Source of the DNA: Gammaproteobacteria bacterium
GTDB lineage: Bacteria; Pseudomonadota; Gammaproteobacteria; SZUA-229
Assembly (NCBI GenBank): GCA_016744065.1
Contig: JADGFA010000008.1
Span: 1-64,000, forward strand
Direction of reading: 5' to 3'
DNA: 64,000 nucleotides
In this document: positions 8,499 through 60,581 of the stretch, in pieces
Numbering within the stretch: the stretch's first letter is position 1
How the letters are laid out: each line of letters begins with the position of its first letter
Made by a program: the position numbers and the translations under genes
Notes under the pieces: model-generated
What the model was told of the DNA's origin: nothing
What the model saw: the letters and a program-made list of their open reading frames with translations, nothing else
The model's database searches: none

Positions 8499-9341
8499 AT
8501 GGAACAAGCAAAGTTAAAAAATATTATTGAAGCCATTTTACTTACTGCAGACCAGCCTATGGAGATGCGTAAGTTAGAGACATTATTTGAAGCTGATGAA
8601 GAATTACGTCCTGGTAGAGATAATATTCTACAGGCATTGCAAGAATTGCAGGCTGATTATGAGGGACGTGGCATTGAACTTAAAGAAGTCGCCAGTGGTT
8701 ATAGAATGCAGGTGGAGCCTTCAAATGCACCCTGGGTTTCTCGTATGTGGGAAGAAAAGCCACCTCGCTATTCCAGGGCTTTACTGGAAACACTGGTATT
8801 AATTGCTTATCGACAACCCATTACACGTGGTGAAATTGAAGAAATTCGAGGTGTAAGTGTTAGCAGCTATATTGTTAAAACGCTAACAGAGCGCGAATGG
8901 GTTCGGGTTCTGGGGCATAAAGATGTACCGGGTCGTCCATCTATGTATGGCACTACCCGTGATTTTCTGGATTATTTTAATCTTAAAAGTCTTGATGAAT
9001 TACCGAGTTTGGCGGATATTACGGATCTGGATAAATTGCATCCAGAGCTAGCATTAGAGCAGGAAGTACCTGCTGCTGAAGTGGGTGAAGATTCAGAGAC
9101 TTCAGAGACTTCAGAGACTTCAGAGACTTCAGAGACTTCAGAGACTTCAGAGACTTCAGAGACTTCAGAGACTTCAGAAACTTCAGAAACTTCAGAAACT
9201 TCAGAAACTTCAGAAACTTCAGAAACTTCAGAAACTTCAGAAACTGAAGCTGTCATAGAAAATGAAGTGAATGAAAGCTCGGTTCCTGTGAGTGGCACTG
9301 AGGATAGCGATGAAGCTGAAGAAGAGCCTGTTATTAACTAA
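8499..9341 (+). CDS. scpB: Segregation and condensation protein B with repetitive Ser-Glu-Thr tail
   Basis: 280 residues. The first 185 contain the two winged-helix domains of ScpB: IEAILLTADQPM, then ALLETLVLIAYRQPITRGEIEEIRGVSV and GRPSMYGTTRDFLDYF. ScpB dimerises and binds ScpA in the SMC complex. The C-terminal tail is unusual. After VGED comes the tripeptide Ser-Glu-Thr repeated 17 times, then an acidic stretch. The repeats keep the reading frame because each unit is 9 bp. Acidic, low-complexity ScpB tails are known in other bacteria, but this regular repeat looks like recent expansion. Confidence 0.96.
   Translation: MEQAKLKNIIEAILLTADQPMEMRKLETLFEADEELRPGRDNILQALQELQADYEGRGIELKEVASGYRMQVEPSNAPWVSRMWEEKPPRYSRALLETLVLIAYRQPITRGEIEEIRGVSVSSYIVKTLTEREWVRVLGHKDVPGRPSMYGTTRDFLDYFNLKSLDELPSLADITDLDKLHPELALEQEVPAAEVGEDSETSETSETSETSETSETSETSETSETSETSETSETSETSETSETSETSETEAVIENEVNESSVPVSGTEDSDEAEEEPVIN
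9093..9245 (+). repeat. 17-copy 9-bp tandem repeat inside scpB
   Basis: Direct count gives nine units TCAGAGACT (9093-9173) followed by eight units TCAGAAACT (9174-9245), with no other variation. All units translate as Ser-Glu-Thr. The two homogeneous blocks point to expansion by slippage or unequal exchange from one GAG and one GAA parent unit. Copy-number changes would keep the frame, so the repeat can vary tail length but not switch the gene off. Confidence 0.97.
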
Positions 9342-59868: not shown

Positions 59869-59958
59869 CTTGCTGGTTTTAGGGTATGGGTCACTTATAG
59901 TGAGCTCAGACCAGTGGTGCGTGATTTTTAATTTTAAATTATTTCTACAGGATCAAAA

Positions 59959-59993
59959 TGGAGGGCAGTGCCTTAAAGCAGGATCCGCCTCCA
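59959..59993 (-). terminator. Candidate terminator of the small Fur-controlled gene
   Basis: On the minus strand TGGAGG and CCTCCA form a stem (with inner TGC/GCA) followed directly by TTTT, about 40 nt beyond the stop of the small gene at 60034-60222. The T-run on that strand favours termination of the minus transcript. Confidence 0.55.
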
Positions 59994-60033
59994 GTTGAGA
60001 TTATTCGAACTTGCTGTTTCTAACTATTAATTT

Positions 60034-60222
60034 CTAATCATCAATCGAGCGGTTTTGGCAGCTCATGTTTCCACAGTCCTTTGTGCAGTTAAGTTGTTGA
60101 TCTACAATCATTTTCTGCAGTTGGTCATGATTTACTGTTTTTACAGAACGTCCTGTTTTTGAGTCCAGTAGTCGTAGACTTAAATTAGGGCAACTAAGTA
60201 ATGTTGTTATCAGATCATTCAT
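60034..60222 (-). CDS. Small cysteine-containing protein under Fur control
   Basis: 62 residues: a Leu-rich start MNDLITTLLSCPNLSLRLLD, a central charged helix, and a C-terminal cluster of three cysteines (NCTKDCGNMSCQ). AAGGAT lies eight bases ahead of the ATG. Immediately upstream is a sigma-70 promoter (TTGATT, 16 bp, TATAAT) with a Fur box over the -10. The three clustered cysteines could bind iron or an iron-sulfur cluster, but this is not the Bfd pattern and not HemP as I know them. Because of the regulatory signals it is probably a real gene for iron limitation. Function unknown. Confidence 0.75.
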   Translation of the reverse strand: MNDLITTLLSCPNLSLRLLDSKTGRSVKTVNHDQLQKMIVDQQLNCTKDCGNMSCQNRSIDD

Positions 60223-60247
60223 TGTTGAATCCTTTAGTAAACTCCCA

Positions 60248-60266
60248 AATGAGAATTATACTCATT
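60248..60266 (-). promoter_or_regulatory. Fur box
   Basis: The 19-bp core AATGAGAAT-T-ATACTCATT is a palindrome with one mismatch, flanked by C and G that extend the arms (CAAATGAG and CTCATTTG). It matches the classic Fur operator form AATGAGAAT/ATTCTCATT closely. It covers the -10 hexamer of the small minus gene, 26 bp ahead of its ATG, so binding of Fur with iron would block transcription. Confidence 0.85.
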
Positions 60267-60282
60267 TGCAGCGATTAATCAA
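60255..60282 (-). promoter_or_regulatory. Sigma-70 promoter of the small Fur-controlled gene
   Basis: On the minus strand TTGATT (plus 60277-60282) is followed after 16 bp by TATAAT (plus 60255-60260). The -10 is a perfect consensus and lies inside the Fur box. Confidence 0.8.
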
Positions 60283-60581
60283 TTATGTTTACAGGTTTTT
60301 CATCTAATCAGGCATTATATTTTCTATGGACTGATCAGCATTTTTTGTGCATTTTGTGGGGTGTCACCCATTAGATTGGGAGCATTACAAATAATAACCC
60401 CATGTTCTTTAGCGGCTACTTTGCTGTATGGCCTTTATTCCCACCCGCTGCTTCTAGTTTATCTTTCTTAAAGAGTCATATAATTTGCGTTTAATAGCAG
60501 GCAATAACAAATTACTTTATATATAAATTTGCAGATTGTATGATGGCATAACTTAAACACCTTTGAACAATTAAAAAATTT

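Follow-up and report, generated by a model that had tools for sequence, protein, structure and literature searches.

The small gene examined here lies on the minus strand of a 64,000-nucleotide stretch of gammaproteobacterial DNA (the window) and is flanked by the elements collected in Table 1. It appears among the open reading frames of the window as an ATG-start ORF of 62 codons, whose strand had been left unstated in the initial annotation. The good ribosome site claimed there is an AAAGGA motif 7–8 nt before the ATG, and the consensus TATAAT promoter, likewise claimed, proved to be the top match of a promoter scan over the 2.5-kb region. The TATAAT falls inside a 21-bp palindrome that starts 45 bp before the ATG, in keeping with the near-perfect Fur box that had been described over the -10.

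Table 1. Coordinates of the small gene and of the features around it, with the evidence for each.
Feature	Position	Strand	Evidence
Small protein gene	60034..60222	-	62 aa, MNDLITTLLSCPNLSLRLLDSKTGRSVKTVNHDQLQKMIVDQQLNCTKDCGNMSCQNRSIDD; dN far below dS, orthologues, structure model
Ribosome-binding site region (AAAGGA)	60227..60236	-	sequence; ATG at 60222
Putative Fur box, AAATGAGTATAATTCTCATTT	60247..60267	-	best match in the genome to the scanned pattern; overlaps the -10; identical in G000, G002, G003, G004 and G009
Predicted sigma-70-type promoter, TTGATT-16-TATAAT	60255..60282	-	promoter scan; TATAAT and -35-like hexamer retained in orthologues
Decayed gene remnant, PF00389 only	60270..60500	-	intact (~130 aa) in relatives; no long ORF in the window
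GC-rich hairpin then UUUU, possible terminator	59955..59996	-	folding energy z -0.76; unconserved

The Fur box and its surroundings

Within three mismatches of the Fur pattern, one site, the box of the small gene, was found in the 64 kb vs. none expected (100 shuffles). When the scan was extended to the 3.9-Mb genome, the small-gene box ranked first with a single mismatch and the next four sites had 2–3 mismatches each, while a reversed control pattern gave one match vs. five for the Fur-box pattern. The C71 and C35 sites each precede a TonB receptor and an AraC-like regulator and the C64 site precedes a FecI-FecR-FecA set, all named by reading their sequences, and the C68 site lies within a bacterioferritin/Bfd/DUF2325 cluster identified by Pfam. 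The genome encodes two Fur-family proteins. Among the six orthologues described below, the 21-bp box is identical in five, with divergent flanking bases; the exception, G013, has no box and reads TTTAAAGACTTACAATCACC at the corresponding position. The box was assigned to the small gene rather than to alaA, which is 315 bp away in the window, because the intact upstream gene of relatives is separate, co-oriented and ends just before the box. By its sequence, the box strongly implies Fur repression of the small gene, as had been suggested initially; in the window organism itself, Fur is presumed to bind and the gene to be expressed.

The upstream gene, a remnant in the window, is intact in relatives (L002 1049-1447, L005 1036-1431 and L057 3530-3919), where it lies between alaA and the small gene and encodes, in ~130 aa, the catalytic-domain part only of a D-2-hydroxyacid dehydrogenase. 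No intact PF00389 ORF was seen in the sister genome G003. On the other side of the small gene, the terminator-like hairpin of the initial annotation does exist as a stem of ~10 bp followed by UUUUG (~59993-59958). A conserved terminator was nevertheless rejected, since a pattern scan of the 2.5-kb region did not call it, its folding energy is ordinary and no better than that of shuffles, and a search for its conservation in relatives found none. The 3′ region gave no Rfam match, and nothing resembling the rsmW RNA was seen downstream of the small gene.

Coding evidence and orthologues

When the small gene was compared with its orthologue in the sister species, 27 of the 37 differences fell at third codon positions, and the counts per codon position against the sister genomes were 8/2/27, 9/4/29, and 9/4/27. 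Pairwise dN was 0.05–0.18, whereas dS was ~1 or saturated. The frame of the 62-aa gene is thus under strong purifying selection. Of the four other genomes of the same genus that were examined, three have an orthologue with 77–92% identity, and two more orthologues, with 46–48% identity, are found in other genera (G009 and G013). What is conserved across all six orthologues is a core of residues 1–45, and the Cys tail is the least conserved part. The protein has four cysteines (C11, C46, C50, and C55), and C11 together with the triad C46-x3-C50-x4-C55 is retained in five of the six orthologues; G013 keeps the core and has lost the triad, along with the box. The homologue search proposed initially thus found the frame, the cysteines and the Fur box conserved together, and the Cys cluster itself held up within the orthologues, although it is not the defining feature of the family discussed below. 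With the frame, dN far below dS and third-position changes all agreeing on a coding gene, as first described, what lies behind the Fur box is almost certainly a real protein gene.

The predicted structure consists of a helix (residues 3–9), two strands (16–19 and 26–30) and a second helix (32–45), followed by a disordered Cys tail; confidence in the model is weak (pLDDT 68, pTM 0.40), and Foldseek returned nothing among PDB folds at E≤0.001. In a PDB sequence search, LRLLDSKTGRSVKT resembled a WD40 blade of the designed Tako8 propeller (E 1.7e-6), a match that covers 19 residues of a hairpin and was taken as convergence.

Relationship to the PA4570 family

No Pfam family matched the 62-aa protein at E≤10. 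Among NCBIfam models, PA4570_fam (NF050178, an equivalog) gave a sub-threshold match of E 0.012 (15.9 bits) for the window protein and E 0.00099 (19.3 bits) for that of the sister species, both far short of the cut-off of 100 bits; the match of the window protein spans only residues 4–46, and the model has 69 positions. PA4570_fam matches were relied on at thresholds of 1e-3 to 1e-2 only, and weak ones across the order were set aside as mostly chance, since controls such as E. coli also match at the looser threshold of those weak hits. A profile of the six orthologues searched against 369 genomes of the class did not reach the PA4570-like genes, and its matches beyond the genus were no more than chance-like fragments; access to the family came instead through PA4570_fam and profile-profile comparison. 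PA4570-like genes were drawn from the 369 class genomes, 15 were aligned, and the two profiles were compared with hhalign, which aligned columns 1–42 with columns 1–42 at E 1.7e-7 and a score of 37 (E 5.7e-7 over columns 1–41). In two sets of 200 column-shuffled controls, the top scores were 15.7 and 17.0. In single-sequence runs, nine of 35 family members exceeded the best of 267 unrelated proteins, and for most of the nine the residue register is the same, counted from Met1.

Because the hhalign score lies above the shuffles and the single-protein controls were likewise exceeded, we conclude that the window protein very probably belongs, as a distant member, to a wider PA4570-like family and not to the curated equivalog. 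It shares with the family a homologous N-terminal core of ~42 residues in the same register and a Fur-like box within 150 bp upstream of its gene. The C-terminal LFLLsC helix, in contrast, is absent from all six orthologues; it is present in many members of the wider family and also missing from some. Like the window protein, PA4570 of Pseudomonas aeruginosa and its family are small (~60–75 aa core), match over the N-terminal ~45 residues, and combine an hRhhDxxTG hairpin with a Fur box just upstream; unlike them, the window protein ends in a C-x3-C-x4-C tail in place of the LFLLsC helix. In P. aeruginosa, PA4570 is co-transcribed with rsmW, has a canonical Fur site and is induced by iron starvation (PMC13277308), and its protein is less abundant at high iron and more abundant in a prrF mutant (PMC8534726). 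The initial proposal of a new small iron-stress protein is therefore upheld as to a real gene behind a Fur box, but the protein is not an isolated one: its family has an NCBIfam name and published data on iron starvation.

Across the class, 45 of 369 genomes (~12%) match the 15-row profile at E≤0.01, and at 1e-3 the family model had no match in any of 14 control genomes, which included E. coli. A Fur-like box with at least 15 of 18 consensus positions occurs within 150 bp upstream of 30 of 35 distinct members, vs. 0.1% of shuffled upstreams and 5% of neighboring ORFs of at least 200 aa at the same score, and in many members it lies ~40–60 bp before the start, as in the window gene. A Cys triad beyond residue 40 is found in 17 of the 35 members vs. 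3.9 expected on shuffling, and C-x2-C-x2-C in 11 vs. 0.4, neither figure being corrected for shared ancestry. Within ~8 kb of 38 family loci, the neighbors include Bfr (six loci), Bfd (five), a TonB receptor (12), and DUF2325 (four). None of four canonical relatives scanned had a Pfam match above the cut-off, and no description of the wider family was found in the open-access literature. The small iron-starvation proteins of this family, to which the window gene belongs, occur here and there across the Gammaproteobacteria and have for the most part not been described. A second relative, distinct from the window protein, is encoded in the same genome (83 aa, G000:C68); it ends in an LCLKNCMNC tail and lies near bfr and bfd.

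Some further observations concern the surroundings of these genes. The region of the second relative (L121, 1574-5767) holds two bacterioferritins, Bfd, a DUF2325 protein, the 83-aa PA4570-like protein and several Fur-like boxes, and a DUF2325 gene adjoins PA4570-like genes at four of 38 other loci. PA4570-like sub-groups without the N-terminal hairpin region were also seen (L125, L126, L129, L130, and L133), one of them being marked by 'LCAAD[FL]R..D..SK', and Fur-like boxes at 14–16 of 18 positions lie upstream of such sub-groups.

Proposed function and alternatives

The reading that we prefer, and consider probable, is that of a genuine Fur-repressed gene, on at low iron, which encodes a divergent, shortened member of the PA4570-like family of Fur-controlled proteins. 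Fur bound over the -10 would repress the gene, which would be switched on when iron is low. The ~45-residue core of helix, beta-hairpin and helix might then act as an adaptor for a cellular partner, the binding of which would adjust the use or storage of iron in starvation, and the variable Cys tail, where present, could bind iron, an Fe-S cluster or zinc, or sense redox, and thereby tune partner binding. An adaptor or regulator with an optional Cys tail is favored because evolution has kept the core while the tail varies; taken by itself this mechanism is tentative, and we infer both the partner and the metal of the small protein. No iron genes adjoin the small gene in the window.

On a broader scale, one could speculate that the Fur-repressed family constitutes the protein branch of a response to iron starvation, functionally parallel to iron-sparing sRNAs, with exchangeable Cys tails that read iron or redox. 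It is conceivable in the same context that a common adaptor core acts on iron storage or use and that the window protein represents the family in minimal form, with a triad of its own. PA4570 is strongly iron-regulated in a major pathogen, and the only functional guess made for it, an RsmA-like role, failed complementation. With relatives in many genera that share the Fur box, often have Bfr, Bfd or TonB-receptor neighbors and recurrently carry a Cys triad, PA4570 is no longer an orphan but one of a family whose part in iron starvation can be tested.

A different possibility is a Bfd-like iron or Fe-S (or heme or zinc) protein, in which a metal center held by the cysteines would donate electrons or iron to bacterioferritin or another partner. 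The retention of the triad and C11 in all orthologues but one speaks for it, as do the C-x2-C-x2-C tails that recur in the wider family in excess of expectation and the Bfr or Bfd neighbors at 5–6 of 38 loci. However, the tail is also the least ordered part of the protein, and because the triad is absent from G013, where the core persists, and from half of the wider family, a metal role cannot be the core function of the family. Bfd (PF04324) resembles the window protein in being small, Cys-containing and preceded by a Fur-type box, which the true Bfd of the same genome (L121 2744-2953) has as well, but it shows no sequence match, its cysteines are spaced differently, and a Fer2_BFD match is absent. 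We therefore consider this alternative unlikely. HemP/HmuP of hemin uptake is likewise a small Fur-controlled protein, as proposed for the window protein, but its Pfam domain was not found; the initial view that the protein is neither Bfd nor HemP agrees with these missing matches.

The gene could instead encode a lineage-specific Fur-regulated protein of independent origin, its likeness to PA4570 being that of a generic beta-hairpin. Low identity and a differing C-terminal half would fit this idea, and the WD-like match of LRLLDSKTGRSVKT illustrates that convergent hairpins arise. Yet the register runs from start to start across 42 columns with scores far above those of shuffled and real-protein controls, and both the size class and the placement of the Fur box agree with many members, which makes an independent origin improbable.

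As has been proposed for PA4570, a CsrA/RsmA-like RNA-binding protein may also be considered, or an mRNA with an RsmW-like sRNA in its 3′ UTR: PA4570 was reported to be 16–17% identical to RsmA/RsmN, and rsmW, an RsmA-binding sRNA, lies downstream of it (PMC4950607). Complementation of an rsmA mutant with PA4570 failed, however (PMC4950607). For the window protein, there is no Pfam CsrA match, and the helix-strand-strand-helix arrangement predicted (at low confidence) is unlike the beta-rich dimer fold of CsrA; its 3′ region is unconserved, folds like shuffles, and has no Rfam match. Either form of this proposal is thus very improbable.

A Fur-controlled RyhB-like non-coding RNA with a chance ORF, for which the short transcript expected behind a strong Fur box might speak, is hardly tenable, because the substitutions follow codons, the frame is kept across three genera and no Rfam match was found on the gene; nor was there a conserved RNA structure without the frame, and the pattern that the initial annotation had named as pointing to an RNA, a box conserved without the frame or the cysteines, did not occur.

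Elsewhere in the window, a gene on the plus strand (8499-9341) encodes a ScpB-like protein with a long, low-complexity (Ser-Glu-Thr)n tail near its C terminus, which is a tandem codon repeat.
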